Positions 18,667 through 51,962 of a DNA stretch of 64,000 nucleotides are shown here, in pieces. The stretch is from the NCBI RefSeq assembly GCF_013184775.1, contig NZ_JAATVV010000001.1:372001-436000 (forward strand), given 5' to 3'. Numbering within the stretch: position 1 is the first letter of the stretch; each line of letters begins with the position of its first letter. A model generated the notes under the pieces. It was not told the DNA's origin. It ran no database searches and saw nothing but the letters and a program-made list of their open reading frames with translations. Position numbers and translations under genes: made by a program. The stretch is from Martelella sp. HB161492 (GTDB lineage Bacteria; Pseudomonadota; Alphaproteobacteria; Rhizobiales; Rhizobiaceae).

Positions 18667-18696
18667 AATGAGTTGACGTGGCGGGACCGCCCCACC

Positions 18697-21950: not shown

Positions 21951-21952
21951 GC

Positions 21953-28262: not shown

Positions 28263-29140
28263 CCGACCCGCACCCCACCACGCGAAAACAGACCATTGGG
28301 ACGCAGCATCAAGACGACGATCATGACGATGAAGCCGGCCGCTTCCTGCCAGATGACATCAAAGAAGCCACCAACCCAGCTTTCCAGAACCCCAAGGCAG
28401 ATCGCCGCGACGGCAGCCCCCGGAATGGAGCCCATGCCGCCGATGATGATGATGGCAAGCGCCTTGAAGACCAATGTCTGCCCGAGATAGGGCTGCACCA
28501 GCTGGATCGGCGCGATCGCTGCACCGGCAAGCCCGCAAAGGGCCGCCGCCAGCAGCACCGAATTGCGCCCGACACGGCGCGGCCGGATGCCGACCATCAG
28601 CGCCGCCTCACGGTTTTGCGCGACCGCCCGCATGGCACGGCCGAACTGGGTGAAATTCAGCACCGTGATCAGCCCGGCAAAGGAGAGGATCGCAACAATG
28701 CCGGCGGCAATGCGGGTCCAGGCGATGCGGATCCCGCCAATATCGATACCGGCAAAGCCGAACTGGGTTTCGACCATCCGCGGCGTTGCGGTGAAGAAAT
28801 ACTGAAAGCCGTTCAGGATGATGATCGACAGCGCCATGGTGATCAGGATCGAACGCTCGAATTCGCCGGGACCGATCTTCGACAGAAAGGCTTCATAAAG
28901 AATGAGGCCGAAGATCAGCGCCCCGACCACAGCAACAGCGAGGCCCGGAACATAGGAGAGGCCGAATAGCGGCAGCGCAAACACCATGCCATAGGCGCCA
29001 ACCAGAAGAAATTCGCCATGGGCGAAATTGACAATGCCAAGTACGCCGAACAGCAGCGCCAGACCGACAGCGATGAGTGCATAGATCAGCCCCATCACCA
29101 GCCCGTTGGCCGTTATCTGAAACAAGTAGTGATAGTCCAT
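28259..29140 (-). CDS. livH: Branched-chain-amino-acid-type ABC permease LivH
   Basis: The 293-residue membrane protein has the LivH pattern: NGLVMGLIYALIAVGLALLFGVLGIVNFAHGEFLLVGAY at the N terminus and RAMRAVAQNREAALMVGIRPRRVG for ATPase coupling. It is the first gene of the long minus-strand operon (LivHMGF, HyuAB, LLM, threonine-synthase-like, LLM), so the promoter must lie in 29141-29499. Confidence 0.92.
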   Translation of the reverse strand: MDYHYLFQITANGLVMGLIYALIAVGLALLFGVLGIVNFAHGEFLLVGAYGMVFALPLFGLSYVPGLAVAVVGALIFGLILYEAFLSKIGPGEFERSILITMALSIIILNGFQYFFTATPRMVETQFGFAGIDIGGIRIAWTRIAAGIVAILSFAGLITVLNFTQFGRAMRAVAQNREAALMVGIRPRRVGRNSVLLAAALCGLAGAAIAPIQLVQPYLGQTLVFKALAIIIIGGMGSIPGAAVAAICLGVLESWVGGFFDVIWQEAAGFIVMIVVLMLRPNGLFSRGGVRVG

Positions 29141-29499: not shown

Positions 29500-30633
29500 A
29501 TGAAAATACTATCAGCTACCCTGTTTGCAGCCGCAATTTTAGGCACGCCTATGGTTGCAAATGCCGAAAATATCGTCATCGGCATCTCAAATCCCTATAC
29601 CGGCCCGGCTGCCATGGCGGCCGAGCGTGAAAAATGGGGCATCGATCTGGCGGTGAAGGAAATCAACGAAAAGGGCGGCGTCCTTGGCAAGCAGATCGAA
29701 GTGCTGCCGATGGATAATCGCTGCAACCCGTCGGACGCCGTCAACGTCGCCAACCGTCTGGTCGAGGCCAAGGTTGTCGCCATTATCGGCGCCCATTGCT
29801 CGACCGCTGGCCTCGCCACCATGCCGATCATCGAAGAGGCCGGCATCCCGATGGTTTCCGGCGTTGCCTCCAGCCCCAAGATCACCGAGCTTTCCGGCGT
29901 CGGCGGCAATAAGTGGGCCTTCCGCATCAACCCCTCCGACCAGGCGATGATGGAAACGCTGGTGCGTTACCTCGGCGAAAAGAGCGATTTCAAGAAGGTT
30001 GCGATCATTGCCGAAGACTCAGATTTCGGCCGCGGTGGCGCCACGTCCTTCGAACCGCTGGCAAAGGATGCCGGAATCGAGATCCTGTCGACCGATTTCG
30101 TGCCGCAGCAGACCCCGGACTTTACCCCGGTTCTGACCCGCGTTGCCCGTGAAAAGCCCGACGCGATCGCACTGTTCCAGCTTGGCGGCGACCAGCTGAA
30201 CATGCTGCGCAACGCCATGCAGCTCGGCCTCACCATCCCCTATACGGGCCGTGCGGAACTGGGCGGTGAAAACATGCAGATCATCGAGGCAGGCGGCATG
30301 GAAGGCTCGGTTTCAGCCTGGTCCTATTCGGCCGAAATCCACAGCGATCTCAATGATGCCTTCGTCAAGAACATCGAGGCAGATCACGACATGAAGCCGG
30401 TGCTGCAGACCTGGGCCGGCTATGATTCCGTGCGCATCATCGCCCAGGCGATCGAAGAGGCCGGCAGCGCCGACCCCGCCGCCATTCGTGATGCACTGCA
30501 GAACATCAAGTTCACCAATGTTCTCGGCAAGGAAGTCACCTTCGACGACCACAATCAGGCCGGCAAGGTTGTCGTCATTCAGGGCGTCAAGGACCGCGCC
30601 GTCGATATCCTCGACCTCGCCGACGTCAAGTAA
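29500..30633 (+). CDS. livK: ABC transporter substrate-binding protein, LivK type
   Basis: The 377-residue protein has a signal peptide (residues 1-22, ending ANA) and a type-I periplasmic-binding fold (IVIGISNPYTGPAAMAAEREKWGIDLAVKEINEKGGVLGKQIEV, IIGAHCSTAGLATMPI, KKVAIIAEDSDFGRGG). It is divergent from livHMGF and is their likely partner. GATAAGAGGAAC supplies a strong ribosome site. The ligand is unknown; the operon context suggests a hydantoin-like or amide compound. Confidence 0.93.
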   Translation: MKILSATLFAAAILGTPMVANAENIVIGISNPYTGPAAMAAEREKWGIDLAVKEINEKGGVLGKQIEVLPMDNRCNPSDAVNVANRLVEAKVVAIIGAHCSTAGLATMPIIEEAGIPMVSGVASSPKITELSGVGGNKWAFRINPSDQAMMETLVRYLGEKSDFKKVAIIAEDSDFGRGGATSFEPLAKDAGIEILSTDFVPQQTPDFTPVLTRVAREKPDAIALFQLGGDQLNMLRNAMQLGLTIPYTGRAELGGENMQIIEAGGMEGSVSAWSYSAEIHSDLNDAFVKNIEADHDMKPVLQTWAGYDSVRIIAQAIEEAGSADPAAIRDALQNIKFTNVLGKEVTFDDHNQAGKVVVIQGVKDRAVDILDLADVK

Positions 30634-30863: not shown

Positions 30864-32042
30864 ATGCAAAATTCCAGCATGGGAACGGCGTCCGTCTGGG
30901 CCGGCGAGGAAGATCTCTTCGCCGAGGGCGCCATCTGCACACCGGTCTTCAATTCCGTAGCCTTCGGCTATGAGGACATGAACGAATGGTTTGACGTGGC
31001 GCTTGGCAAGAAGCCGGGCCATATTTACTCGCGCAACACCAATCCCACCGTACGCGTGCTGGAAAACAAGATCCGTCTTCTCGATGGCGGCGATGATGCC
31101 ACGAGCTTCTCCACCGGCATGGCGGCGATCAGCAACACGCTGTTTGCGCTTCTTGCCGCCGGCGACCGCGTGGTCGCGATCAAGGACACCTATGGCGGTG
31201 CCAACAAGGTGTTCATCGAATTCCTGCCGCGCATGAATGTCGAGGTCAGCCTCTGCGATACCTCCGATTTCGATCAGATCGAGGCCGAAGTCGCCAAGGG
31301 CTGCAAAGTCCTTTATCTCGAAAGCCCGACCAATCCGACGCTGAAGGTGGTCGATATCGAACGGCTGGCGAAGGCTGCCCATGCCGTGGGCGCCGTCGTG
31401 ATCGTCGACAACACCTTTGCCACACCGGTCAACCAGAGGCCGCTGTCGCTCGGCGCCGATCTCGTCGTCTACAGCGCCACCAAATATCTGAACGGCCATT
31501 CCGATGTGATGGGCGGGCTGGTGACCGGACGGCAGGATCTGATCGATGCCATTTATCACTATCGCGAAATCACCGGCGCGACACTGCACGCGCAATCGGC
31601 CTACATGATCCTGCGCGGCATGAAGACGCTTGATCTGCGCATCAAGCGGCACAATGAAAATGCCATGAAGGTTGCCGCCTTTCTTGCCGCCCACCCCAAG
31701 GTCGATCAGGTCTTCTATCCCGGCCTGCCGGACCATCCGGGCCATGAAACGGCCAAGAAGCAGATGACCGGCGGCTTTGGCGGGATGATGAGCTTTTCGC
31801 TGAAGGGCGGCTTTGAGCCGGTGGTCACGGTGCTGGAAAATCTGCGCTACGCCCACAAGGCGGCCAGCCTCGGCTCCGTCGGCACGCTGGCCGGCCCGCC
31901 AAAAACCACAAGCCATGTCGAGCTGACGGCCGAAGAACGCGCCGCAGCCGGCATTCCCGAAGGTCTGATCCGCTATTCGGTCGGCATCGAAGATGCCGAT
32001 GATCTGATCGCGGATCTTCAACACGCGCTTTCCCTCTTGTGA
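30864..32042 (+). CDS. PLP-dependent Cys/Met metabolism enzyme (cystathionine gamma-synthase family)
   Basis: The 392-residue enzyme belongs to the MetB/MetC/methionine gamma-lyase group: IYSRNTNPTVRVLENKI, FSTGMAAISNTLFALLAAGDRVV, YLESPTNPTLKVVDI, and the PLP-lysine motif VVYSATKYLNGHSDVMGG. Members catalyse beta/gamma elimination or replacement on sulfur amino acids or O-acyl-homoserine. Which reaction applies here is not evident. AAGGA precedes ATG 30864. It stands just before the F420 genes with a 129-base gap, so it may or may not share their transcript. Confidence 0.88.
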   Translation: MQNSSMGTASVWAGEEDLFAEGAICTPVFNSVAFGYEDMNEWFDVALGKKPGHIYSRNTNPTVRVLENKIRLLDGGDDATSFSTGMAAISNTLFALLAAGDRVVAIKDTYGGANKVFIEFLPRMNVEVSLCDTSDFDQIEAEVAKGCKVLYLESPTNPTLKVVDIERLAKAAHAVGAVVIVDNTFATPVNQRPLSLGADLVVYSATKYLNGHSDVMGGLVTGRQDLIDAIYHYREITGATLHAQSAYMILRGMKTLDLRIKRHNENAMKVAAFLAAHPKVDQVFYPGLPDHPGHETAKKQMTGGFGGMMSFSLKGGFEPVVTVLENLRYAHKAASLGSVGTLAGPPKTTSHVELTAEERAAAGIPEGLIRYSVGIEDADDLIADLQHALSLL

Positions 32043-32171: not shown

Positions 32172-33176
32172 ATGCTTACATTTGGCTACAAGGCCTCGGC
32201 CGAGCAGTTTTCCCCTTCCGATCTTCTGCGCTTCGGCGCTGCTGCCGAAAAGGCAGGCTTTGATTCCGTTTTCATCAGCGACCATTTCCAGCCCTGGCGG
32301 CACACGGGCGGTCACGCGCCGTTCTCCATGGCCTTTCTTGGCGCCCTTGGTGCATCGACGTCGCGCATCAAGATGGGCACCAGCGTGCTGACGCCGACCT
32401 TCCGCTACCACCCTTCCGTTGTTGCCCAGGCTTTTGCCACGCTCGGCTCCATGTTTCCCGAACGCATCATTCTCGGCATTGGCACCGGCGAATCCCTAAA
32501 CGAAGTCCCGGCGACCTGCGTCGAATGGCCGGACGGCAAGGAACGTTTTGCCCGGCTGCGCGAATCGGTCCGGCTGATGCGGCAATTGTGGCGCGAGGAG
32601 CGCGTCTCCTTTGAAGGCGACTATTACCGCACCGAAAATGCCACCATTTACGACCGCCCGGAAAAGATGGTTCCGATCTATGTCGCCGGCGCCGGGCCGA
32701 TGATCAGCCGCTATGCCGGCCGCTTTGCCGATGGTTTCATCTGCACTTCAGGCAAGGCACCCTCGCTCTATCTCGACACGCTTCTGCCCAAGGTCGAGGA
32801 GGGCATGGCGATGGAAAAGCGCAACCCCGGCGCGCTCGACAAGATGATCGAGATGAAGGTATCCTTTGACGAAAGTCTGGAGCAGGCACTGGAAGACACA
32901 CGCTTCTGGGCCGCTCTTGCGCTTTCCCCGGAAGAGAAGATGTCTGTCGAGAACCCGCAGGCCATGGAAGAACTCGCTGACCGGCTGCCGATCGAGCGTG
33001 TTGCCAGCCGCTGGATTGTCTCGAACGATCCGGACGTCCATGTCGAGCGCATCCGCCCCTATGTCGAGATGGGCTTCAGGCATCTGGTCTTTCACGCACC
33101 GGGTTTCGATCAGGAACGCTTCCTCACGCTCTATGCCAGGGACGTGCTGCCGCGCCTGCGCAGGGAATTTTGCTGA
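32172..33176 (+). CDS. fgd: F420-dependent glucose-6-phosphate dehydrogenase homologue (Fgd)
   Basis: The 334-residue LLM-fold protein matches mycobacterial FGD1 closely along its length: GYKASAEQF at the start, ISDHFQPWRHTGGHAPFSM (His38 and Trp42, aligning with catalytic His40 and Trp44), LGIGTGESLNE (Glu107, aligning with Glu109), KERFARLRESVRLMRQLW, DGFICTSGK, DKMIEMKVSFD and HLVFHAPGFDQ. FGD oxidises glucose-6-phosphate to 6-phosphogluconolactone and makes F420H2. It heads the F420 gene run, and the CofC-CofG-CofH gene follows within 41 bases. A close homologue in a proteobacterium is unusual. ATG 32172 is preferred to TTG 32169. Confidence 0.9.
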   Translation: MLTFGYKASAEQFSPSDLLRFGAAAEKAGFDSVFISDHFQPWRHTGGHAPFSMAFLGALGASTSRIKMGTSVLTPTFRYHPSVVAQAFATLGSMFPERIILGIGTGESLNEVPATCVEWPDGKERFARLRESVRLMRQLWREERVSFEGDYYRTENATIYDRPEKMVPIYVAGAGPMISRYAGRFADGFICTSGKAPSLYLDTLLPKVEEGMAMEKRNPGALDKMIEMKVSFDESLEQALEDTRFWAALALSPEEKMSVENPQAMEELADRLPIERVASRWIVSNDPDVHVERIRPYVEMGFRHLVFHAPGFDQERFLTLYARDVLPRLRREFC

Positions 33177-33217
33177 ACGGAAACGCCGGCGCACAGATGA
33201 TGAGGGTGAAGCAAGGC

Positions 33218-36200
33218 ATGATCACAGCAGTGGTACCGCTCAAATCGTTCAGCAAGGCGAAGTCACGGCTTGCAGACGTATTGCCGCCGGACCTGCGCGC
33301 TCAGCTTGCCAGAGCCATGGCGGGTGATGTTCTTGCCGTCCTTGCTGAGATTGCGGAAATCGACGCGGTTCTGGTGGTCACCGAAGATCCTTCGGTGGCC
33401 CGGCTTGCGCGCGCCGCGGGCGCAGACGTGCTGCTCGAGCCCAGCCTCAATGGCTATAACAGCGCCGCCCGCGCCGCTGCAGACTTCATCGGTGCAGACA
33501 AGACCATGCTGCTTGTGCCGGGCGACCTGCCCGCCCTTGCTGCCGGCGACATCCGCCGGCTGATCGCAACCCATGGCGCGGGGCCCGGACTGACGCTTGT
33601 GCCCGACCGGATAAGAGACGGCACCAATGCGCTGATGGTGACACCGGCCGATGGACTGACCTTCTGCTTCGGTCCGGCAAGTTTTGAACGGCATCAAGAG
33701 GCCGCCCGTGAGGCCGGCCTTGCCGTTCAGGGCCTCGAACTTGAAACCATCGGCTTCGATCTCGACCATCCCGAAGATCTGGCAGCGCTGTGCGTGCTGC
33801 CGCTGGGGCCGCTGAGCCGCAGCGCCTTCGCGGCGCTGAAGACCGCTGAACCAACGATAAACAACAAGAACATCCGCCGTCCCCTCGGGCTTGAGACGGA
33901 TGCCACCTCCCGAAGGGAAACAATCATGACCACAACGCTAGAAGACATTGTCAGCAAGGCCGCCGGAGGCATCCGCATCAGCGATGATGAAGCGCTGGCA
34001 CTGCTTGACCTCGATGCAACCGATGCCTTGACAGACGCCAGCAGGACGCTGCGCGATGAAGGCCACGGCGATATCATCACCTTTTCGCGCAAGGTCTTTA
34101 TTCCGCTGACGCATCTGTGTCGCGATGTCTGCCATTACTGCACCTTTGCCCATCCGCCGAAAAAGGGCGAAAGCGCCTTCATGACGCCTGCCGAGGTTCT
34201 GGCGGTCGCGGAAGCCGGCAAGCGCGCGGGCTGCAAGGAAGCCCTGTTCACGCTCGGCGACAAGCCGGAGCTTCGCTACCGCGCCGCGCGCGAGCAGCTT
34301 GCAGAACTCGGCTATGCCGATACGGTTTCCTACATCGAGGCCATGGCGGCAATGGTGCTGAAGGAAACGGGACTGCTGCCGCATGTCAATGGCGGTGTGA
34401 TGACGGCAGGTGAGATCGCCCGACTGCGCAAGGTCTCGGTATCGCAGGGCATCATGCTGGAAACGGTCTCGACACGGCTTTCGGAACGGGGCGGCCCGCA
34501 TTTCGGCTCACCCGACAAGCTGCCCGCACCGCGCCTGCAGATGATGCGCGAAGCAGGCGCCGCCGCCATTCCCTTCACCTCCGGCATTCTGATCGGAATC
34601 GGTGAAACCCGTCAGGAGCGGATCGAATCTCTGCTGGCTTTGCGCGATATCCACGAAAATCACGGCGGCCACATTCAGGAAATCATCATCCAGAATTTCC
34701 GCGCCAAGGCCGACACCAAGATGGCCAATGCGCCAGAGCCGGATCTTGACGAGCAGGTCTGGACGATTGCCATGGCGCGGCTGATCTTCGGCGCAAGGAT
34801 GAATATCCAGTCACCGCCGAACCTGCGCCCCGAAGAACTGGCAGCACTCATCAATGCCGGGATCAATGACTGGGGCGGCATTTCCCCGGTGACGCCCGAC
34901 CATGTGAACCCGGAAGCCCCCTGGCCGCAGATCGTGGCGCTGGAGCGGGAAACCGAAAAAGCCGGCAAGATCCTCGCCGAACGGCTTGCCGCCTATCCGC
35001 CTTATGCACGCGACGCCGCGCACTGGGTCGATGCCGGCCTTCACGGCGCGCTTTTGCGCCATCAGGACAGCGAGGGTTACGCCCGGCCGGATAACTGGAT
35101 TGCAGGATCGGGCACGCAGCCGCCAACGCTTTTTGCAAAGCCCCCGGCCATGCGCGCCAATGACACGCTTCACGCCATCGTCGACCGCGCCTTTGCCGGA
35201 AAGAGGCTGTCGGAAGACGAAATCGTCCGGCTGTTTGCCGCACGCGGCGGAGAATATGAATTTGTCCGCGCAAAGGCTGACGAATTGCGCCACGCCGTCT
35301 GCGGCGATGATGTTTCCTATGTCGTCACCCGCAACATCAACTACACCAATATCTGCTACTTCAAATGCCAGTTCTGCGCTTTCTCCAAGGGCAAGATGAG
35401 CGAGAACCTGCGTGGCCGCCCCTATAATCTGCCTCTGGAGGAGATCCGCCGCCGGGTCGTCGAAGCCTGGCATCGCGGCGGCACCGAGGTTTGCCTGCAG
35501 GGTGGCATTCATCCCGAATATACCGGCCAGACCTATCTCGACATCTGCGAGACCATCCGCAAGGCCGAGCCCGCCATGCATATTCACGCCTTCTCGCCGC
35601 TGGAAGTGTGGCAGGGCGCCGAAACACTCGGCCTTTCCGTGCCGGATTTCCTTGTCGCACTGAAGGAAGCAGGCCTAAGCTCCATGCCCGGAACGGCCGC
35701 GGAAATTCTTGACGACGAGGTGCGGCGCGATCTCTGCCCCGACAAGATCAACACCGCCCAGTGGATGGAAGTGGTGGAAGCCGCCCATCGCGCCGGCATC
35801 CGCACCACCGCCACCATCATGTTCGGCCATATCGACCGGCCGGAGCACTGGGCGCGGCATATTCTGCGCGTGCGCGATATCCAGGAGAGAACCGGCGGCT
35901 TCACCGAATTTGTCGGACTGCCCTTCGTACCGATGGAAACGCCGATCTATCTGAAGAACCGGTCGCGCCTGGGCCCGACCTATCGCGAGGCGATGCTGAT
36001 GCATGCGATTGCCCGCCTGGCGCTCAACCCGGTTCTCACCAATATCCAGGCCTCCTGGGTCAAGCTCGGCGCGGAAGGGCTGTCCGATTGTCTGACGGCG
36101 GGCGCCAACGATGCCGGCGGCACGCTGATGGAGGAAACCATCACCCGGGCGGCCGGTGCCGTTCACGGCCAGGAAATGGCGCCGCACGAATTTGTCGAGA

Positions 36201-36340
36201 TGATCCGCGCGCTCGGCCGCACACCGCGGCTGCGCAACACGCTTTATGAAACGGCGCCCGAAAGCCGCATGCAACGCGCTTTCCAGGCGCCGCCGCTGGA
36301 GCCATCCATCAACACACTGGCATCGAAATATGACCGCTGA
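33218..36340 (+). CDS. F420 biosynthesis trifunctional fusion CofC-CofG-CofH
   Basis: One uninterrupted frame of 1040 residues joins three F420 enzymes. Residues 1-215 are CofC (AVVPLKSFSKAKSRLADVL, LLVPGDLPALAAGDI), the guanylyltransferase that activates a phospho-acid. Residues 216-236 are a linker. From Met237 follows CofG, a radical-SAM domain with C-x3-C-x2-C at 301/305/308 (CRDVCHYC). CofH follows from about 650, with C-x3-C-x2-C at 713/717/720 (CYFKCQFC). CofG and CofH together form the deazaflavin FO; actinobacteria have this pair fused as FbiC. ATG 33926, after GAAGGGAAA, could also start CofGH separately. Start alternatives are ATG 33197 or 33200. Confidence 0.93.
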   Translation: MITAVVPLKSFSKAKSRLADVLPPDLRAQLARAMAGDVLAVLAEIAEIDAVLVVTEDPSVARLARAAGADVLLEPSLNGYNSAARAAADFIGADKTMLLVPGDLPALAAGDIRRLIATHGAGPGLTLVPDRIRDGTNALMVTPADGLTFCFGPASFERHQEAAREAGLAVQGLELETIGFDLDHPEDLAALCVLPLGPLSRSAFAALKTAEPTINNKNIRRPLGLETDATSRRETIMTTTLEDIVSKAAGGIRISDDEALALLDLDATDALTDASRTLRDEGHGDIITFSRKVFIPLTHLCRDVCHYCTFAHPPKKGESAFMTPAEVLAVAEAGKRAGCKEALFTLGDKPELRYRAAREQLAELGYADTVSYIEAMAAMVLKETGLLPHVNGGVMTAGEIARLRKVSVSQGIMLETVSTRLSERGGPHFGSPDKLPAPRLQMMREAGAAAIPFTSGILIGIGETRQERIESLLALRDIHENHGGHIQEIIIQNFRAKADTKMANAPEPDLDEQVWTIAMARLIFGARMNIQSPPNLRPEELAALINAGINDWGGISPVTPDHVNPEAPWPQIVALERETEKAGKILAERLAAYPPYARDAAHWVDAGLHGALLRHQDSEGYARPDNWIAGSGTQPPTLFAKPPAMRANDTLHAIVDRAFAGKRLSEDEIVRLFAARGGEYEFVRAKADELRHAVCGDDVSYVVTRNINYTNICYFKCQFCAFSKGKMSENLRGRPYNLPLEEIRRRVVEAWHRGGTEVCLQGGIHPEYTGQTYLDICETIRKAEPAMHIHAFSPLEVWQGAETLGLSVPDFLVALKEAGLSSMPGTAAEILDDEVRRDLCPDKINTAQWMEVVEAAHRAGIRTTATIMFGHIDRPEHWARHILRVRDIQERTGGFTEFVGLPFVPMETPIYLKNRSRLGPTYREAMLMHAIARLALNPVLTNIQASWVKLGAEGLSDCLTAGANDAGGTLMEETITRAAGAVHGQEMAPHEFVEMIRALGRTPRLRNTLYETAPESRMQRAFQAPPLEPSINTLASKYDR

Positions 36341-36370
36341 CCTTCCGCAACCGTTTGATCGGCATTCCGC

Positions 36371-37135
36371 ATGAGCACGCCCCTCACCCTTTCTCCGGTC
36401 GATGGTCTTCCGTTGATCAAGCAGGGCGATGACCTCGCCGCGCTGCTGATTGCCGCCATGGCAGAAGACAAGCTCGCGCCCAAAGCCGGCGACGTGCTGG
36501 TTCTGGCACAGAAAATCGTCTCCAAGGCGGAAGGCCGCGCTGTCAGGCTGTGCGATGTGACCCCAGGCCCGCAGGCGCAGGAACTTGCCGCTGCGATCGG
36601 CAAGGATGCGCGCATGGTCGAACTCATCCTCGGCGAAAGCCGCCGTGTGGTGCGCACCGGCCCCAACCTGCTGATCGTTGAAAACCGCAATGGGCTGATC
36701 ATGGCCAATGCCGGGATCGATCGTTCGAATGTTGCCGATGATGCCGAGGAAATCGCGCTTTTGCTGCCGCTCGATCCGGATGCAAGCGCCGCGCGGCTGC
36801 GCACGGCGCTGTCGGACCATTTCGGCATGGCGATTGCCGTACTGATCAACGATTCCTTCGGCAGGCCATGGCGGCGCGGCACGGCGGGCACAGCGATCGG
36901 TGTCGCAGGCCTGCCGGCGCTCATCGATATGCGCGGCAAGCCCGACCTGTTCGGCACACCATTGCAGCATACCGAAATTGCCTTTGGCGACGAGATCGCG
37001 GCTGCCGCCTCGCTGCTGATGGGGCAGGCCTCGGAAGGACGGCCAGCGATCTTGATCAGCGGGCTTTCCTGGCAGGCAGACGCCAATCCGGCCTCGGCCC
37101 TGCAGCGCCCCGCCGGGCAGGACCTGTTCCGATAA
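36371..37135 (+). CDS. cofE: F420-0:gamma-glutamyl ligase CofE
   Basis: The 254-residue protein is a stand-alone CofE: GDVLVLAQKIVSKAEGR, RRVVRTGPNLLIVENRNGLIMANAGIDRSN and INDSFGRPWRRGTAGTAIGVAG are family landmarks for GTP, metal and F420-0 binding. It adds gamma-linked glutamates to F420-0. Unlike mycobacterial FbiB it has no C-terminal nitroreductase-like FMN domain. It starts 30 bases after the CofCGH gene. Confidence 0.93.
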   Translation: MSTPLTLSPVDGLPLIKQGDDLAALLIAAMAEDKLAPKAGDVLVLAQKIVSKAEGRAVRLCDVTPGPQAQELAAAIGKDARMVELILGESRRVVRTGPNLLIVENRNGLIMANAGIDRSNVADDAEEIALLLPLDPDASAARLRTALSDHFGMAIAVLINDSFGRPWRRGTAGTAIGVAGLPALIDMRGKPDLFGTPLQHTEIAFGDEIAAAASLLMGQASEGRPAILISGLSWQADANPASALQRPAGQDLFR

Positions 37136-37266
37136 AAATCCGGCAGGGTGCAATGCTGCCGGAACAAAATTCCGGCAAGCCCCGCCTGCGGCGATAACAA
37201 TGCCCTTCTGCTTCGGCTAATCTGACGGCACAATCAGAAAAAGCCTGTCAGAAGTGGAACGCAAGC

Positions 37267-38184
37267 ATGAAAATCGGCGCCCTGTTTCCCCAGTTCGAAA
37301 TCGGAACCAATCCGAAGGATATTCGCGACTTTGCCGTGATCGCCGATGAACTCGGCTATACCCATCTGACCGCCTTTGACCAGATCATCGGCCTGAACCA
37401 GCACAGCCGGCCGGGCTGGACCTATGTTCATGATGCCGAAGACATGTTTCATGAGCTGTTCGTGCTTTACGGCTATCTTGCTGCGGTGACCAGGCAGATC
37501 GAGCTTGTCACCGGCGTGCTGGTGCTGCCGATGCGGGGCACGGCGCTCGTTGCCAAGCAGGCCGCCGAAGTTGATCTCCTCAGCGGTGGCCGCCTGCGTC
37601 TCGGCGTCGGCGTCGGCGTCAAGCCCGAGGAATTCGAAGCCTGCGAGCGCGAATTTCGTGGCCGCGGCAAACGCATGGACGAGCAGATCGACGTGTTGCG
37701 CAAGCTCTGGTGCGCCGACCTCATCACCTATGAGGGCAAATATCACCGTATCGAGGATGGCGGCATCAATCCGTTGCCGGTCCAGCGGCCGATCCCGATC
37801 TGGATCGGCGGCGTCTCCGATGCCGCGATCAAGCGCGTCGCCACGATCGGCGACGGCTGGCTGCCGAATTTCCAGGCCGACGACACCGGCAAACGCGGCA
37901 TTGCCCAGATGAAGGAGATCGCCAAAGCCGCAGGCCGCGACCCGGAGGCGATCGGCATCGAGGCGACGCTGACGATCATCGACCGTTCCTATGCCGAACT
38001 GCGCGAGGAGATCGAGGAATGGCGCGCCATCGGCGCCACCCACATCACCGTCAACACCATGCCGGAACGCTGGGTTGAGGAAGAGAAGCGCTGGAACAAG
38101 GCCGAGATGGACGGACTTGCCCACCCGGAAGAGCATATTGATGCAATCCGCCGCTTCCATGCCGCGATGAAGGATTATTTCTGA
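37267..38184 (+). CDS. LLM-class oxidoreductase, probable F420-dependent type
   Basis: The 305-residue luciferase-fold protein has the F420-associated LLM pattern: IGALFPQFEIGTNPKDIRDFAVIADELGYTHLTAFDQI, IELVTGVLVLPMRGTALVAKQAAEVDLLSGGRLRLGVGVG and PIPIWIGGVSDAAIKRVATIGDGWLP. Being embedded between cofE and cofD, it is the best candidate user of the F420 made here. The substrate is unknown. It is followed after four bases by the M24-family gene and probably works on a related compound. Confidence 0.9.
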   Translation: MKIGALFPQFEIGTNPKDIRDFAVIADELGYTHLTAFDQIIGLNQHSRPGWTYVHDAEDMFHELFVLYGYLAAVTRQIELVTGVLVLPMRGTALVAKQAAEVDLLSGGRLRLGVGVGVKPEEFEACEREFRGRGKRMDEQIDVLRKLWCADLITYEGKYHRIEDGGINPLPVQRPIPIWIGGVSDAAIKRVATIGDGWLPNFQADDTGKRGIAQMKEIAKAAGRDPEAIGIEATLTIIDRSYAELREEIEEWRAIGATHITVNTMPERWVEEEKRWNKAEMDGLAHPEEHIDAIRRFHAAMKDYF

Positions 38185-38188
38185 GCCG

Positions 38189-39364
38189 ATGCCGGTCTTT
38201 TCCTCATCCGAATATCAGGCCCGGATCGCCCGCATTCGAGACCTTATGCGGGCCAGGGGGTTCGATGCGCTGATTGCTGCCGATCCGGCCAGCATCAACT
38301 ATCTGACCGGCTATGATGGCTGGTCCTTCTACGTCCACCAATATGTGCTGCTCGATCTCGACAGCGCCGAACCCCTATGGGTCGGACGGGCCATGGATGC
38401 GCCTGGAGCCCGGCTGACAAGCTTTCTGTCTGCGGATGCAATCCGCCCCTATCCGGAACACTATGTTGATACCACCGCGCGCCATCCCGCCTCCTTTCTC
38501 GCTGAAGTGATCGCCGGACAAGGACTTGCACGCGCCCGGATCGGGATCGATCTCGATGCCTTCTACTTCACCGCCAAGGATTATCTGACCCTGTCATCCG
38601 CCCTTCCCGCCGCAACGATCGGCGATGCCGAGGGGCTCGTCAGCTGGGTCAGGCTGGTGAAATCGGATGCTGAAGTGGCACTCATGCGCGGCGCTGGCCA
38701 GATCGTCTCGAAGGCGATGGAAGCCGGCATTCAGGCGATCCGTCCCGGTGTGCGCGAATGCGATGCCGTAGCCGAGATCACCGCGGCCCAGTTCCGCGGC
38801 ACGGACGATTTCTGGGGAGACTATCCGGCCGCCCTTGCCGCAGTGCCAAGCGGTGCCAAGACAGCCGCCCCGCATCTCACCTGGTCGGGCGACCCTTATC
38901 AGGCCGACAGCATCGCCTATCTCGAGCTTGGCGGCTGCCATGCGCGCTATCATGCCGCACTCGCCCGCACCCTCTATATGGGCGATCCGCCCGAGGCCCT
39001 TCATCGCATGGCCGGTGTGGTGGCCGAGGGGCTTGAGACCGCGCTGGATGCCGCGCGTGCCGGGGTCACCTGTCATGCTGTCGAAGCGGCCTGGCGCGGG
39101 GTGATTGCCAAGGCCGGCTATGAGAAGGCCTCACGCATCGGCTATTCGATCGGCCTCAACTACCCCCCTGACTGGGGCGAGCGCACCGCGAGCCTGCGCG
39201 AGGGCGACATGACGGTGCTGGAACCCAATATGTGCTTCCACATGATCCTTGGCATGTGGATGGATGACTGGGGCTATGAACTGAGCGAAACCTTGTGTAT
39301 CCGGAAGACCGGAGCACCCGAAATCCTGACCTCCTTTCCACGGGAACTGACGATCAAGCCATGA
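38189..39364 (+). CDS. M24-family (creatinase/ectoine-hydrolase-like) protein
   Basis: The 391-residue pita-bread-fold protein resembles ectoine hydrolase DoeA: LIAADPASINYLTGYDGWSFYVHQYV, YPEHYVDTTARHP, HLTWSGDPYQADS, GYSIGLNYPPDWGERT and MWMDDWGYELSET. The usual M24 metal ligands are not all present (LELGGCHARYHAALART in place of the D...D motif), as in creatinase, which hydrolyses a C-N bond without metal. It likely cleaves an amide or amidine. No other ectoine genes adjoin it; it sits in the F420 gene run, overlapping cofD by four bases. Confidence 0.82.
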   Translation: MPVFSSSEYQARIARIRDLMRARGFDALIAADPASINYLTGYDGWSFYVHQYVLLDLDSAEPLWVGRAMDAPGARLTSFLSADAIRPYPEHYVDTTARHPASFLAEVIAGQGLARARIGIDLDAFYFTAKDYLTLSSALPAATIGDAEGLVSWVRLVKSDAEVALMRGAGQIVSKAMEAGIQAIRPGVRECDAVAEITAAQFRGTDDFWGDYPAALAAVPSGAKTAAPHLTWSGDPYQADSIAYLELGGCHARYHAALARTLYMGDPPEALHRMAGVVAEGLETALDAARAGVTCHAVEAAWRGVIAKAGYEKASRIGYSIGLNYPPDWGERTASLREGDMTVLEPNMCFHMILGMWMDDWGYELSETLCIRKTGAPEILTSFPRELTIKP

Positions 39365-40371
39365 GCGATGCTGCAGACAAAGCCCTGACCGAAGACATAC
39401 CGGCACCTCTCAACGCCAAAGTTCTGGCGATCTGCGGCGGCGTTGGCGGCGCCAAGCTGGCGCTCGGCTTCTATCGGATCCTGAAACAGGACCAGCTCAC
39501 TGTCGCCATCAATACCGGCGATGATTTCGAGCATCTGGGCCTGCATGTCTCACCGGATATCGACACCGTGACCTACACGCTTTCCGGCCTCAACGACACC
39601 CAGCGCGGCTGGGGGCTGAAAGATGAGAGCTGGAATTTCATGACCGGTCTTGGCCGGCTTGGCGGGGAGACGTGGTTCAATCTCGGCGACCAGGACATGG
39701 CCACCCATGTGCTGCGGACGGCGAAGATGAAGGCTGGCGAAAAGCTTTCCACCATTACCGCCGATTTCGCCCGCGCGCTGGACATCCGGGCAAAGCTCCT
39801 GCCGATGAGCGATGATCCCGTGCGCACCATGGTCGACACCTCCGAAGGCGAATTGCCGTTTCAGCGCTATTTCGTCGGCCGCCAATGCGAACCGGAAATC
39901 CGCAGCATCCGCTTTTCCGGCATCAATGCCGCAAGACCGCATCCCGCCTTCATCAAGGCGCTCGCCGACCCGGAGCTTACGGCCATCGTCATCTGCCCGT
40001 CCAACCCTTATCTGAGCATTGATCCGATCCTGGCGCTGCCCGGCCTGCGCGACGCGCTGTCGATGGCACCAGCCCCGGTGATTGCCGTTGCCCCCATTGT
40101 CGGCGGCCGGGCGATCAAGGGACCGACGGCAAAGATCATGCAGGAACTGAGAGTGCCGACGACGGTCTCCTCTATTGCCCAGCACTATACCAGCCTGATC
40201 GACGGCCTGATCGTCGACAATGCCGATGCCGCCGATATCCTGTCACTGACCGTGCGCGTGGCCGTGACCGGCACGGTGATGGACAGTCTCAAGGACCGCG
40301 AGCGGCTGGCCCGCACGGTAATCGACTTCGCCCGATCGCTGAAGCTGGAACAGGCCGCAAGCGCGCGCTGA
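39361..40371 (+). CDS. cofD: 2-phospho-L-lactate transferase CofD
   Basis: The 336-residue protein has the CofD signature AICGGVGGAKLALGFYRIL, NTGDDFEHLGLHVSPDIDTVTYTLSGL, NLGDQDMATHVLRT and ICPSNPYLSIDPILALPG. It transfers the activated phospho-acid from the CofC product to FO, giving F420-0 (or a dehydro or 3-phosphoglycerate variant). Its ATG overlaps the preceding stop as ATGA. With CofC, CofG, CofH and CofE it completes the known F420 pathway within about 7 kb. Confidence 0.94.
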   Translation: MSDAADKALTEDIPAPLNAKVLAICGGVGGAKLALGFYRILKQDQLTVAINTGDDFEHLGLHVSPDIDTVTYTLSGLNDTQRGWGLKDESWNFMTGLGRLGGETWFNLGDQDMATHVLRTAKMKAGEKLSTITADFARALDIRAKLLPMSDDPVRTMVDTSEGELPFQRYFVGRQCEPEIRSIRFSGINAARPHPAFIKALADPELTAIVICPSNPYLSIDPILALPGLRDALSMAPAPVIAVAPIVGGRAIKGPTAKIMQELRVPTTVSSIAQHYTSLIDGLIVDNADAADILSLTVRVAVTGTVMDSLKDRERLARTVIDFARSLKLEQAASAR

Positions 40372-40378: not shown

Positions 40379-41323
40379 TTACGGCAGGCGGCCGAGGCGC
40401 TCCAGCATCAGATCGTAAAAGGGCGGGTTGTCCAGTTCGCGCAGCACCATGCAATTGGGTGCCTGCTTGGTGACATTCCACCAGTCGACAACCGTCATGC
40501 CGATGGTCATCGGCGATGAGATCTCGATCGTCACATAGCAGTTCTTGCCGCCAAACAGATCGGGCCGCAGCAGATAGCCGATCACGCAGGGGTCATGCAG
40601 CGGATATTCATCCGTGCCGAATTTCTGATTGCCCCATTCCTGGTAAAACGCGGCCATGCCGGCGGCCTGGATCGCCGTATTGGTGCCGACGGCGCGCAGT
40701 GTTTCCAGCCAGGCGGGCGTCATCACCGCCTTGTAGGTGCAGTCGATCGGCACCATGGTCAGCGGAACGCCGGAGGTGAACACGACATGGGCAGCATGGG
40801 GATCGACGAAAATGTTGAATTCAGCCGCCGGTGTCGTATTGCCGCCCTCGAAGAAGCCGCCGCCCATGAAAACGATCTCGCGGATCTTCGGCACGATGGC
40901 CGGTTCCTTGACCATGGCCATGGCGATATTGGTCATGGGCCCCAGCGGACACAGCGTGATCTCGCCGTCCTCTGACGCCATCAGCGTGTCGATGATGAAA
41001 TCGACGCCATGCCGGTCTCCCAGCGGTGCGGTCGGCTCCGGCAGTTCGCAGCCATCAAGGCCGCTGTCGCCATGGACATATTCGGCGGTGAACAGCTTTT
41101 TCACCATCGGCCGCTGGCAACCGGGATAGACGGGAATATCAGAGCGGCCGGCAAGGGCCAGCACCTGCTGGGCATTGCGGGTGGTGCGCGACAGAGGCAC
41201 GTTGCCCGCAACGGAGGTGACGCCGACAACCTCCAGTTCCTCAGGCGATCCGAGCGCCAGCAATATGGCAAAGGCGTCGTCCTGGCCGGGATCGGTATCA
41301 ATGATGATTTTGCGCGGGGTCAT
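40379..41323 (-). CDS. Inosine-uridine-preferring nucleoside hydrolase family protein
   Basis: The 314-residue protein has the calcium-binding motif KIIIDTDPGQDDAFAIL, then GVTSVAGNV, LGPMTNIAMAMV, GEFN-like PAAEFNIFVDPHAA and a late DPCVIGYLL segment, all typical of IUNH enzymes. These split N-ribosides into base and ribose. ATG 41323 follows GAGAGAG. It ends eight bases from the convergent cofD gene. It is divergent from the second Liv-type operon and may process what that system imports. Confidence 0.92.
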   Translation of the reverse strand: MTPRKIIIDTDPGQDDAFAILLALGSPEELEVVGVTSVAGNVPLSRTTRNAQQVLALAGRSDIPVYPGCQRPMVKKLFTAEYVHGDSGLDGCELPEPTAPLGDRHGVDFIIDTLMASEDGEITLCPLGPMTNIAMAMVKEPAIVPKIREIVFMGGGFFEGGNTTPAAEFNIFVDPHAAHVVFTSGVPLTMVPIDCTYKAVMTPAWLETLRAVGTNTAIQAAGMAAFYQEWGNQKFGTDEYPLHDPCVIGYLLRPDLFGGKNCYVTIEISSPMTIGMTVVDWWNVTKQAPNCMVLRELDNPPFYDLMLERLGRLP

Positions 41324-41671: not shown

Positions 41672-42790
41672 ATGAGAAAATGGATCCCCCTGACGCTTGC
41701 GGCCGTTGTAACCGCCGCTGGCCTCCAGACCTCTGCGCGGGCCGAAGACGCGCCGATCGAAATCGGCGTGATCGCCAACCTGACCGGCCCCGACGTCAAG
41801 ACCAGCCTGCAGATGAGCCGTGGTGTCGAGCTTGCAGCCGATGACATCAACGCCGCCGGCGGCATTAACGGCCATCCGGTCAAGCTGATCGTGGAGGATT
41901 CCGAATATCGTGCTCAGGAAGCGCTGAATGCCGCGACCAAGCTCTACACCGTCGACAAGGTTCCCGCCGCCATCATGTTCGGCGGTTCCAGCCTGATGAT
42001 CCCGGTTGCGCAGATGGCCAAGGAGCAGGGCAAGATCCTGATCAACACCTCTTCGTCCTCGCCCAAGCTCGGTGAATATCCCGGCACGCTGTTTTCCATC
42101 CTGCCGCTCGACGACATCGTCTCCAAGGATCTTGGTGACATGATTGCCGATGCCGGCATCAAGACCGCCGCCGTCGTTGTTCCCAACAATGCTTTCGGTC
42201 TCGGCGTTGCCGATGCCGCGACCGCCGAATTCGAAGCCAGAGGCGGCAAGGTTGTCGAAAAGATCGCCTATACCGAAGGCCAGCCCGATTACCGCGCCGA
42301 TGTGCAGGTTCTGGTCGGCGACGATGTCGGCGCCATCATTGCCACCGGTTACGGCGATGACAGCCGCACGGTATTCCGCAACATGCGCGAACTTGGCATC
42401 GACGCTCCCTGGTATGCCGCCTATCCCTCGATCCTCGACGTTGAAAACCCGGAATGGATGAACGGCAAGCTGACCGGTGTCGACAATGGCGGCTACGGCC
42501 AGGGTGTCGGCGAGAAGGTGCTGGCCGAATACAAGGCGAAATACGGCGATGAAGACGTGCTCGCCCACATCTATTACGGCTATGACGCGCTGATGGTGCT
42601 CGCCAAGGCCATGGAAAAGTCCGGCACCGAGCCGGCCGATATTGCCAAGGCGCTGCCGGAAGTGGTCAAGGACTATCAGGGCGCGACCGGCACCATCGTC
42701 TGGGATGATCGCGGCCAGCGCATCGACCCGCCGATCGACGTCATCACCTATGAAGACGGAAAGTTCGTGACCACCGGTCATCGTAACTGA
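41672..42790 (+). CDS. ABC transporter substrate-binding protein (second Liv-type system)
   Basis: The 372-residue protein starts at ATG 41672 after AGAGAGAG. It has a signal peptide (residues 1-22, ending ARA) and a type-I binding fold (IEIGVIANLTGPDVKTSLQMSRGVELAADDINAAGGINGHPVKLIVEDSEY, FGGSSLMIPVAQMAKEQGKILINTSSSSP). It heads an operon with two permeases and two ATPases. The ligand is unknown. Confidence 0.93.
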   Translation: MRKWIPLTLAAVVTAAGLQTSARAEDAPIEIGVIANLTGPDVKTSLQMSRGVELAADDINAAGGINGHPVKLIVEDSEYRAQEALNAATKLYTVDKVPAAIMFGGSSLMIPVAQMAKEQGKILINTSSSSPKLGEYPGTLFSILPLDDIVSKDLGDMIADAGIKTAAVVVPNNAFGLGVADAATAEFEARGGKVVEKIAYTEGQPDYRADVQVLVGDDVGAIIATGYGDDSRTVFRNMRELGIDAPWYAAYPSILDVENPEWMNGKLTGVDNGGYGQGVGEKVLAEYKAKYGDEDVLAHIYYGYDALMVLAKAMEKSGTEPADIAKALPEVVKDYQGATGTIVWDDRGQRIDPPIDVITYEDGKFVTTGHRN

Positions 42791-42874: not shown

Positions 42875-43759
42875 GTGCTTCAGGTTCTCGTCAATTCCAT
42901 CGTTTATGCGAGTGAGATCGCCGTGATCGCCGTTGGCGTATCGCTGTGCTATTCGATCCTTCGCTTTGCCAATTTCGCCCATATCCAGCTGGCGGTCGTT
43001 GGCGGCTATCTCTGCCACGCCTTTTCAACGCTGGCGCATTTTCCGCTGCCACTGGCGATCTTCGCCTCGGCCATTGCCACCGGTTTCATCGCCATTCTCA
43101 TCGATATGCTGGTCTTTTCGCGCATCCGCGACATCTCGCCGGAAGGCAAGATGATCGTTTCCTGGGGCGTGGCGCTGTTCATCCGCTCCATGGTAGCGGC
43201 GATCTGGGGCGGCTCCGCCCAGACCTTCAATGTCGATTCCAAGGTGATCGTCTGGCACAAGACGGTGTTCACCTCGCTTGATTTCACCATTGTCGCGGCG
43301 ACGATCGTGCTGATGGTGGCGCTGCATGCCTATCTCTACCGCACCCGGATCGGATCGGCGCTCCGCGCACTTGCCAGCAACTGGGAACTGGCGGTCACCC
43401 GCGGCATTCCCGGTGAAAAGCTGATCCGGCTGATGTGGTTTCTCGCCGGTGCGCTGGCGGCCGTCGGCGGTTCGCTGATGGCGATGCAGACACGGCTGCA
43501 GCCGAGCCTTGATCTTCTGATCCTGCTGCCGGTCTTCGCCGCAGTCACCATTGGCGGCATGTCCAATGTCTTCGGCGCTGTGCTGGGCGCAATCGTGCTC
43601 TCTTTCGCACAGAATTTCCTGATCTGGTTCGATTTCGGCAGCCTGTTTGGCGGATCACCCTGGCATATCCCGACGCAGTTCCGCGACTATGTCGCCGTTT
43701 TGGCGCTGGTGATCGTGCTGTTGTTCCGCTCCGGCTCGAAATCAACGGCGACGAGGTGA
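42875..43759 (+). CDS. LivH-type ABC permease
   Basis: The 294-residue membrane protein starts at GTG 42875 behind AAGGG. It has the LivH pattern (VNSIVYASEIAVIAVGVSLCYSILRFANFAHIQLAVVGGY) and the coupling loop SALRALASNWELAVTRGIPGEKL. It is the first permease of the second Liv-type importer. Confidence 0.91.
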   Translation: MLQVLVNSIVYASEIAVIAVGVSLCYSILRFANFAHIQLAVVGGYLCHAFSTLAHFPLPLAIFASAIATGFIAILIDMLVFSRIRDISPEGKMIVSWGVALFIRSMVAAIWGGSAQTFNVDSKVIVWHKTVFTSLDFTIVAATIVLMVALHAYLYRTRIGSALRALASNWELAVTRGIPGEKLIRLMWFLAGALAAVGGSLMAMQTRLQPSLDLLILLPVFAAVTIGGMSNVFGAVLGAIVLSFAQNFLIWFDFGSLFGGSPWHIPTQFRDYVAVLALVIVLLFRSGSKSTATR

Positions 43760-43762
43760 TAA

Positions 43763-44638
43763 ATGCTTGATTTCACGATCTACTGCACCACCGTCATTGC
43801 CATATGGGCGGTGCTCGCCATCAGCCTCAACATCCAGTTCGGCATGACCGGCCTGGTCAATTTCGGCCAGATCCTGCCCTTCGCGCTCGGTTGCTATTCA
43901 GCAGGCATCGCCGCCTCGATGGGGTATGCTTGGTGGGCCGGCACGATCGCCGCACTTATCATCGCACCCATCATCTCGCTGCTTGTCATCCTGCCGGCGA
44001 AACGCCTGTCGCAGGATTACTGGGCACTGATCACACTGGGGGCAGCCGAACTTTTCCGGCTGACCATGCAGAACACGCCGTCTTTTGCCGGTGGTGCGGA
44101 CGGCATCAACGTGCCGCGCTTTTCCGATCCGAAGATCGCCCTTGGCGTCGCCCTTGGTCTGCTCGTCTTTTCCTATCTCTTCGCCCAGCGCCTGAGCGGT
44201 TCGCCGCTTGGCCGCATGCTGCGCGTGCTGCGTGAGGACGAAATGCTGGCCTCCACGCTCGGGCGTGATCCGGCGCGCTATCATGCGCTGGTCTCGATGC
44301 TGTCCTGGATGATGGCGGCCGCGGCCGGTGTCGTCTATGGCCATTTTGCCGGCTATGTGGCACCGACAAGCTTTACCGTCACGGAGACCTTCATCATCTG
44401 GACAACCGTCATCCTCGGCGGGCCGGGCCGCAATATCGGCGTCATCATCGGCGCTGTCATCGTCCAGCTGATCGGCGTTTCCTCGCGTTTCGTCGCCGGC
44501 TGGGTCGATCTGCCGCCGGATCTGATCGCCAATCTGCGGCTTGCCGCCTTTGGCCTGATCCTGGTGGTGATGTTCATCTACCGGCCGCAGGGCCTGATCC
44601 CGGAAAAGAAGGAGGTCCACCATGCTGAAGGCGACTGA
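43763..44638 (+). CDS. LivM-type ABC permease
   Basis: The 291-residue membrane protein has the LivM pattern (AISLNIQFGMTGLVNFGQILPFALGCYSAG, DEMLASTLGRDPARYHALVSMLSW). It starts three bases after the LivH-type gene and overlaps the LivG-type gene by 17 bases. Confidence 0.91.
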   Translation: MLDFTIYCTTVIAIWAVLAISLNIQFGMTGLVNFGQILPFALGCYSAGIAASMGYAWWAGTIAALIIAPIISLLVILPAKRLSQDYWALITLGAAELFRLTMQNTPSFAGGADGINVPRFSDPKIALGVALGLLVFSYLFAQRLSGSPLGRMLRVLREDEMLASTLGRDPARYHALVSMLSWMMAAAAGVVYGHFAGYVAPTSFTVTETFIIWTTVILGGPGRNIGVIIGAVIVQLIGVSSRFVAGWVDLPPDLIANLRLAAFGLILVVMFIYRPQGLIPEKKEVHHAEGD

Positions 44639-45386
44639 TATCAGCCTGGCCTTCGGTGGCTTCAAGGCACTGAACGACGTCAGCATCGAAGCGGCTCCCG
44701 GCAGCATTACCGGGCTGATCGGACCCAACGGCTCGGGAAAGTCGACGCTGCTGAACGTCATCAGCGGTGTCTATGTGCCCGACCATGGCACCGTGACGCT
44801 CGATCGCAATCCGCTGCCGCTCGGAAAGCCAGAGGAAGTCGCCGCCCGTGGTATCGGCCGCACCTTTCAGGTGCCGCGTCTTGCCCGCAGGCTGAGCGTG
44901 TTCCAGAACATGCTGGCCGGTGAGCCCAACCATGCGGGTGAGAACATCTTCGATCTGTTCCTGCGACCGGGCCGGGTGGCGGCACAGGAAAGAACCGCCA
45001 CGAAACGGGCATGGGCGATCCTGAAGCGGCTCGGCATGGATCTGAAGGCCAATGATCCGGCCGGCAGCCTTTCCGGTGGCCAACAGAAGCTGCTGACCAT
45101 GGGCATGCTGCTGATGGCCGATCCCGCCGTGCTTCTGCTCGATGAACCGGCGGCCGGCGTCAATCCGGTGCTGATCGCCCAGCAGGTGGAATTTCTGAAA
45201 TCCCTGAAGGCGGAAGGCCGTACCGTGATCCTGATCGAGCATAATATGGAAATGATCGCCAATGTCTGCGACCGCGCCTATGTGCTGGATGCCGGCGAAG
45301 TGATTGCCTTTGGCACGCCGGCTGAGATCCGCGCCAATGAGCAGGTGATCCGGTCCTATCTCGGCCAGCCGGCCGAACAGGAGTAA
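44622..45386 (+). CDS. LivG-type ABC ATPase
   Basis: The 254-residue ATPase has Walker A GPNGSGKST, signature LSGGQQKLL and Walker B VLLLDEPAAGVNP. GGAGG precedes its ATG inside the 3' end of the LivM-type gene, so it is translationally coupled. It works in the second Liv-type importer. Confidence 0.92.
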   Translation: MLKATDISLAFGGFKALNDVSIEAAPGSITGLIGPNGSGKSTLLNVISGVYVPDHGTVTLDRNPLPLGKPEEVAARGIGRTFQVPRLARRLSVFQNMLAGEPNHAGENIFDLFLRPGRVAAQERTATKRAWAILKRLGMDLKANDPAGSLSGGQQKLLTMGMLLMADPAVLLLDEPAAGVNPVLIAQQVEFLKSLKAEGRTVILIEHNMEMIANVCDRAYVLDAGEVIAFGTPAEIRANEQVIRSYLGQPAEQE

Positions 45387-45392
45387 AGGCGC

Positions 45393-50493: not shown

Positions 50494-50519
50494 TTCATTT
50501 CCTTTCAGTGGGCGCAGGG

Positions 50520-51920: not shown

Positions 51921-51962
51921 CGCTGTTCCTGACTTTCATGCTTTTGGCGTGTCACGTGGCGC

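Follow-up and report, generated by a model that had tools for sequence, protein, structure and literature searches.

A predicted complete coenzyme F420 locus within a conserved, putatively catabolic operon of an alphaproteobacterium

The actinobacterial system for coenzyme F420 consists of FbiC, FbiB, FbiA and FbiD together with Fgd1. Among alphaproteobacteria, trace amounts of F420 have been measured in Oligotropha carboxidovorans and Paracoccus denitrificans, and Fgd and Fno are predicted in alphaproteobacteria, according to a 2021 review (PMC8498797). The same review describes the role of F420 in proteobacteria as open, with no F420-dependent enzyme of these bacteria studied by that time (PMC8498797). 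Gene clusters of the cof/fbiC (npdG) type also occur in Alpha- and Gammaproteobacteria, for example on S. meliloti R28 pSymA and Agrobacterium rubi pW2_73_1. Here we describe a 64-kb stretch of DNA from Martelella sp. HB161492 (order Rhizobiales/Hyphomicrobiales), called the window below, in which a set of F420 genes at 32172-40371 interrupts a conserved operon.

The S. meliloti and A. rubi clusters contain the same enzymes as the window, with a fused CofGH, linked genes for luciferase-like oxidoreductases (LLM) and importers, and cyclic-amide hydrolases nearby, as in the window. The gene table of the pSymA record, which is incomplete, does not contain cofE. The window differs from both in that it has Fgd rather than Fno, cofC shares its frame with cofGH, the genes are ordered differently, and an LLM and an M24 gene lie between cofE and cofD. 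With the actinobacterial system it shares the FO synthase fusion and an Fgd that is 60-61% identical; however, the actinobacterial FbiC and Fgd belong to clades other than those of the window, and the window lacks the FbiB reductase domain and has Met for His260 of Fgd. The loci of O. carboxidovorans and P. denitrificans were not among the matches listed, no search by name having been made. A plasmid of Paracoccus alcaliphilus carries the split CofG/CofH type, unlike the window.

Proteins were identified by their NCBIfam profile scores, compared with the curated cut-offs. The genes of the locus and of the operon around it are as follows.

32172..33176, plus strand: Fgd, F420-dependent glucose-6-phosphate dehydrogenase family (TIGR03554, 485.7 bits, cut-off 420)
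33197..36340, plus strand: CofC-CofG-CofH, a single open reading frame (CofC model match 33227-33796; CX3CX2C in both radical-SAM halves)
33926..36340, plus strand: CofGH (FbiC-type FO synthase), possible own start (AAGGGA, as read in the sequence, ends 7 bases upstream)
36371..37135, plus strand: CofE, F420-0:L-glutamate ligase, without nitroreductase domain (TIGR01916, 266 bits, cut-off 181)
37267..38184, plus strand: LLM_c, F420-type luciferase-like oxidoreductase (TIGR03619, 262 bits, cut-off 167)
38189..39364, plus strand: M24 hydrolase related to the ectoine hydrolase DoeA (TIGR02993, 437.9 bits, below the cut-off of 613)
39361..40371, plus strand: CofD, 2-phospho-L-lactate transferase (TIGR01819, 286.5 bits, cut-off 257)
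40379..41323, minus strand: nucleoside hydrolase, pyrimidine type (below equivalog cut-offs)
41672..42790, plus strand: SBP2, substrate-binding protein of the catabolic operon
42875..46115, plus strand: ATP-binding cassette (ABC) importer of livH, livM, livG, livF type
46167..47036, plus strand: polysaccharide-deacetylase/PuuE-like hydrolase
48185..48682, plus strand: Lrp/AsnC regulator of the conserved cluster

The original prediction placed seven proteins of F420 synthesis and use (Fgd, CofC, CofG, CofH, CofE, an LLM and CofD) on one strand within 8.2 kb. All seven were found, each over its NCBIfam cut-off, and the predicted assignments are therefore far beyond chance. CofC, CofG and CofH are, however, one frame and not three genes, and the gene list, otherwise right, lacked the DoeA-like M24 gene at 38189-39364, which follows the LLM and, at 39361, shares with cofD the reported ATGA overlap. 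The spacing is 20 bases from Fgd to the cofC ATG, 30 to cofE, 131 to LLM_c and 4 to M24. The base composition is like that of the neighbours, as had been stated (GC 0.60-0.65, with 0.61 for the window).

The CofGH protein scores 1118 bits with NF006687 (cut-off 1018), its CofG part 487 with TIGR03550 (213), its CofH part 565 with TIGR03551 (374), and CofC scores 148 bits with TIGR03552 (105). CofE lies below the cut-off in two further CofE models, NF009809 and NF009810. Both radical-SAM halves keep their CX3CX2C motif (CRDVCHYC and CYFKCQFC), CofC keeps GDLPAL and the DxD metal Asp of the FbiD structure, and CofD keeps both Asp matching D45 and D57, the metal-binding residues of FbiA (PMC8498797). 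Among the radical-SAM and CofD sites named as decisive, the CX3CX2C of CofG and CofH and the metal Asp of CofD thus show no inactivating substitution. At the sequence level the locus is thus real and complete. That synthesis, reduction and candidate use lie together also held, with a predicted complete pathway by way of FO and F420-0 to F420, an F420 reducer and a candidate user; from these genes we infer that the strain makes F420 and uses it.

The operon interrupted by the cof genes comprises the Lrp regulator, the PuuE-like hydrolase, livFGMH, SBP2, the nucleoside hydrolase, M24 and LLM_c. A synteny search in Hyphomicrobiales had been proposed; run on 297 genomes of the order, it found the operon in four. 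These are the genomes in which a close LLM_c relative (>480 bits) adjoins M24: that of the window, G015, G261 and G231. Identity to the window is 66% and 68% for the M24 of G015 and G261 and 77% for their LLM_c, and 56% (M24) and 68% (LLM_c) in G231. Three of the four have F420 biosynthesis genes, and G261 has a predicted import cassette instead. The Lrp regulator, the PuuE-like deacetylase, livFGMH and SBP2 are common to the window, G261 (L182) and G231 (L183), and the nucleoside hydrolase is also present in G261 and in G015, where the stretch ends before the deacetylase.

In G261 and G231 the operon contains no cof genes, and in G261 only 6 bases separate M24 from the nucleoside hydrolase. 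In G015 (L032) a full cofE-D-C-GH block with npdG is inserted between these two genes. In the window, cofCGH and cofE lie upstream of LLM_c, and cofD lies downstream of M24. The cof genes have thus become associated with this one operon in two different ways. Near the cof genes of G226 (L051) there is also an M24-LLM pair, but a more distant one. A limited literature search found nothing on F420 together with a nucleoside hydrolase and LLM operon.

Relatives of LLM_c (E<=1e-30) occur in 14 of the 297 genomes, of which 13 have CofD and one (G261) has the predicted F420-0 import cassette. All 14 are among the 39 F420-capable genomes (hypergeometric p 4e-14, the genomes not being independent); the 39 include eight import-cassette genomes, added after G261 had been seen, and otherwise the figure is 13/14. 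The LLM fold in itself is no such marker, as G069 and G136, which lack CofD, carry nine and seven LLMs. In the wider class, relatives are found in 35/385 genomes, the window's own included, the others being 37-56% identical; on plasmids there was no match at 1e-40. The nearest solved structure by sequence is the F420-dependent reductase Mer. The genome has 10 LLM genes, four of them inside the window. In the window, Fgd, LLM_b and LLM_c pass the F420-family cut-offs and LLM_a does not. None of the six outside the window does so (matches at E<=1e-30): one is of Atu2307 type, three are of MsnO8 type, one is a sub-threshold TIGR03619 protein and one is unmatched at E 1e-30.

Neither CofD nor an FO synthase was found in the genome G261. 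Its Fgd has as neighbours CofE, a TIGR03842 LLM and a transporter made up of a periplasmic binding protein, a FecCD permease and an ATPase. An F420-0 importer has been predicted from actinobacteria, and NCBIfam labels this transporter a putative F420-0 importer. In G261, to which alone the importer models were applied, TIGR03868 is over its cut-off, TIGR03869 is 0.7 bits under and TIGR03873 well under. By similarity to the G261 proteins, the cassette is present in 8/8 genomes that are positive for Fgd and negative for CofD (loci L257, L258, L260, L261, L262, L264, L338 and L339, in Hyphomicrobiales genomes without CofD or CofH), with Fgd at its head in seven and elsewhere in G242. This predicts F420-0 salvage in alphaproteobacteria. 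The cassette (TIGR03868/03869/03873) is a feature of relatives, found with Fgd and CofE where CofD and CofH are absent, whereas the window has its own biosynthesis genes and no cassette. At first sight G261 argues against the use of F420 by LLM_c; its Fgd, CofE and importer-like genes weaken that objection.

The frame of CofC, CofG and CofH runs without a stop from ATG 33197 (or TTG 33170) to 36340. The start chosen by the gene caller, 33317, would truncate CofC. The last residue aligned with CofC is at 33829, and the 96 bases from there to ATG 33926 contain no in-frame stop. The product would be either a 1047-residue fusion of about 115 kDa, or this fusion with a CofGH that additionally starts on its own at ATG 33926. 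In a survey of 116 rows with CofGH (window excluded, some genomes counted more than once), CofC was in frame with CofGH in six rows, corresponding to five genomes (L039 and L084 are the same contig), and separate in 80; CofG and CofH were two frames in seven rows, and 23 had no CofC within the stretch. No mention of a single-frame CofC-CofG-CofH protein was found in a limited literature search. The window's own family also has an F420 cluster of another type, in which CofE shares a frame with CofC, and CofG and CofH are split (L041 5302-6669, G265).

Fgd keeps the motifs SDHFQPW, GTGE, ICTSGK and EEK. Its Met257 replaces a His found in R. jostii Fgd and in four actinobacterial Fgd, which we take to be the His260 of the actinobacterial enzyme (a literature search returned no paper on the number or on the role of this residue). 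All ten members of the window's alphaproteobacterial Fgd clade have Met (8) or Val (2) here, and all seven of a second alphaproteobacterial clade have His. In the Fgd tree the 17 alphaproteobacterial rows are split from the four actinobacterial ones with full support, and identity to the window is 63-74% for the former and 60-61% for the latter. An earlier tree with two fragmentary outgroup rows was distorted and was discarded, and only its identity list was used.

Of 25 genomes tested, 17 have the alternative reducer Fno (npdG over cut-off), and in 15 of the 17 it lies within about 3 kb of cofD. Among the 21 CofD genomes of this test it is absent from the window's own genome, G004, G055 and G171. 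Three of these four have Fgd, compared with only G233 among the 17 with Fno (hand count). The one candidate for Fno in the window's genome, an 83-bit match (cut-off 149.8) in a frame with no NCBIfam match at E<=1e-30, was rejected. Fgd seems to replace Fno in this genome. G004 also contains a second F420 locus (L263 8552-14101), LLM-Fgd-CofC-CofGH, with no CofD or CofE in its 20 kb stretch.

The neighbourhoods of cof genes were compared using 20 cof regions from 19 genomes of the order and 40 control stretches, placed by hand on the same contigs of 18 of those genomes. LLMs like those of the window and pSymA occur in 11/20 cof regions and 0/40 controls; the queries miss remote LLMs, one of which (G265:C13:36456-37202) lies inside control L361. 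Ring-opening hydrolases (M24, HydAB, PxpABC, dihydroorotase, PuuE-like, amidohydrolase) occur in 10/20 cof regions and 1/40 controls. The window fits this pattern twice, the second case being a minus-strand operon at 17.8-29.1 kb.

On the basis of these observations, we consider it probable that the locus is a working, self-contained F420 island that serves local LLM hydride transferases in a catabolic operon for nitrogen-containing heterocycles. What the DNA shows directly is the set of genes with intact motifs, the conservation of the operon and its link to F420-capable genomes; that F420 is produced and that LLM_c uses it are proposed from these, as are the class of substrate and the sequence of the reactions. 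FO would be made by CofGH, a three-carbon phospho-acid added by CofC and CofD, and the glutamate tail added by CofE. Fgd, in place of Fno, would recharge F420 with sugar phosphate. The importer of the right-hand operon would take up a nitrogen-containing heterocycle, which the nucleoside hydrolase would perhaps first free from ribose. LLM_c (and LLM_b) would then use F420H2 to reduce a double bond of the ring, C=C or C=N, and the M24 and PuuE-like hydrolases would open the ring and trim it, in the way that DoeA opens ectoine.

The window M24 matches the DoeA structure at E 5e-103, but is below the TIGR02993 equivalog cut-off (437.9 vs 613 bits). A second M24 of the same family, 45% identical, is present in the genome at C1:599181. 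Ectoine operons have an Lrp-type regulator and a deacetylase partner. The resemblance to ectoine catabolism is to be read as a likeness of working, not as membership.

A number of observations weigh against a catabolic island of this kind. The LLM_c-M24 operon occurs in only four genomes, two of one family, that of G231 has no nucleoside hydrolase, and M24 relatives are common (109/297 genomes at E<=1e-40). In the neighbourhood test the hydrolase and LLM queries were chosen after some loci had been seen, M24 alone is not enriched (2/20 vs 1/40), and neither are branched-chain-type importer ATPases (6/20 vs 9/20). Ring-opening hydrolases are found in only 8/80 named loci (6/28 alphaproteobacterial), and the hydrolase-cof association is therefore at most a habit of the order. 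The F420 reported for the two named alphaproteobacteria is only a trace (PMC8498797). Finally, a Foldseek search with the AlphaFold model of LLM_c (pLDDT 89.9) gives, in its best 50 rows, a mixture of flavin mononucleotide (FMN) and F420 enzymes, with FMN monooxygenases first. Foldseek thus does not separate FMN from F420 here. Of the proposed mechanism, the cofactor assigned to LLM_c is the least secure part.

It could therefore be that F420 is made, but that the LLM_c/M24 operon is FMN-dependent or an unrelated neighbour, with F420 serving Fgd, LLM_b or others. Besides the structural matches, this would account for G261, which holds the operon without FO synthase or CofD, and for G231, where the operon is on contig C44 and the cof genes on C4. 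Such a separation fits poorly with the restriction of LLM_c relatives to F420-capable genomes (14/14, or 13/14 without the import cassette) and with the two different arrangements in which cof genes meet the operon, in the window and in L032, and we regard it as somewhat unlikely. A further alternative concerns the cofactor itself, which might be a variant or immature form, dehydro-F420 or 3-phosphoglycerate (3PG)-F420, for want of an encoded dehydro-F420 reductase, which in the mycobacterial-type route is the FbiB C-terminal domain or FbiE. CofE has no second domain, and the FbiB C-terminal reductase (TIGR03553) is over cut-off in 0/25 genomes, a search without positive control since none of 14 control genomes gave it either; the window's own genome has no match at E<=1e-3. 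According to PMC8764529, however, Ser or Thr at the position of S162 in M. rhizoxinica CofC marks 3PG use, and the window has Gly there, as do 81 of 93 CofC rows (Asp 9, Asn 3, Ser/Thr 0), on which ground the 3PG-F420 route was rejected. In vitro, the CofC enzymes of both P. denitrificans and O. carboxidovorans prefer 2-phospholactate as substrate, a route that needs no reductase, although the authors warn that in vitro CofC assays cannot settle the in vivo substrate (PMC8764529). A variant cofactor thus appears unlikely, and the product is likely to be ordinary F420, formed by the 2-phospholactate route.

One may also ask whether the locus is decaying or silent, with cof genes retained by chance or Fgd inactive through the His260 change. 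The His-to-Met replacement, the missing stop between cofC and cofGH and the presence of CofD in only 2/13 genomes of the family could be taken in this sense. However, all frames are open and over their cut-offs, Met or Val at that position in 10/10 of the Fgd clade is a trait of the clade and not decay, and the single CofC-CofGH frame recurs in five other genomes, so that decay is very unlikely. The functional F420 island serving the local operon remains the reading that we prefer.

The original prediction held proteobacterial cases of F420 to be few. This view is outdated: CofD is over cut-off in 30 of the 297 genomes, with a 31st half a bit below, a scan of named genomes gave at least 587 relatives of the CofC-CofGH protein (judged by title, most of the best 80 come from alpha- and gammaproteobacteria), CofGH has matches in 75 plasmid records (12 Sinorhizobium, others including Rhodococcus and Streptomyces), and F420 in alphaproteobacteria was already published. 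F420 genes in alphaproteobacteria are not a rarity, and the general fact is known. Within the window's family CofD was found in 2/13 sampled genomes, the other (G265) having the split CofG/CofH type.

A CofGH tree was calculated from 111 rows, with a midpoint root for drawing, leaving out the redundant L047, L084, L250, L252, L254 and L256 and rows covering <650 positions. The neighbours of the window CofGH are rows from proteobacteria and Chloroflexota; its branch is long, and the local support is weak. Outside its group are 6/7 two-frame rows and four FbiC rows from actinobacteria, and a fifth actinobacterial row, Rhodococcus L323, is very long and alone, its placement unsure. Neither the CofGH tree nor the Fgd tree supports a recent transfer from the sampled actinobacteria. 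The old lateral transfer that had been suggested would fit; it is not proved. It is worth adding that L060 and L114, metagenome-assembled genomes titled Klebsiella pneumoniae and Candidatus Kuenenia stuttgartiensis, have CofGH that groups with gamma-/alphaproteobacterial rows, and their labels or bins are doubtful.

The remaining genes of interest in the window, two of them encoding pyridoxal-phosphate (PLP) enzymes, are listed here.

18697-19671, minus strand: LLM_a, LLM oxidoreductase below the F420-family cut-offs
19661-20953, minus strand: PLP enzyme, threonine-synthase-like, between LLM_a and LLM_b
20943-21920, minus strand: LLM_b, over the TIGR03619 cut-off
21953..29095, minus strand: hydantoinase/caprolactamase-like HydB and HydA with livFGMH, second likely catabolic operon
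29551..30633, plus strand: SBP1, substrate-binding protein of a branched-chain amino-acid type ABC importer (Peripla_BP_6)
30879..32042, plus strand: Cys/Met-metabolism PLP enzyme, PRK08249 family, immediately 5' of Fgd (NF006097, 659 bits, cut-off 600)

On the minus strand at 17817-29095, an IclR gene, two LLMs, the PLP enzyme, HydAB and livFGMH form one run, a second likely catabolic operon. SBP1 (29551..30633) probably serves this minus-strand liv operon. A further catabolic-looking group is found on the minus strand at 50080-55775, with a DUF3830 gene, an amidohydrolase, a large Fer2/DAO flavin adenine dinucleotide oxidoreductase and a dihydrodipicolinate-synthase-like gene.

As far as searched, the catabolic setting, the single CofC-CofGH frame, the Fgd variant and the link to the import cassette are new. 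More tentatively, and short of thinking it probable, we suggest that in Hyphomicrobiales F420 may serve catabolism and move together with operons for ring opening. LLMs would reduce a nitrogen-containing heterocycle with F420H2, DoeA-, PuuE-, Hyd- or Pxp-like hydrolases would open it, and F420 would be made on the spot or F420-0 imported by means of the Fgd-CofE-ABC cassette. The locus connects F420 with a single operon that has a single importer, LLM and hydrolase, and the role of the cofactor is therefore testable by growth and with two purified enzymes. It would thus offer a concrete lead on the function of F420 beyond actinobacteria and archaea. The relatives add a second testable point, that certain proteobacteria seem to depend on others for F420-0; if this is true, F420 would be a shared 'vitamin' among soil proteobacteria.

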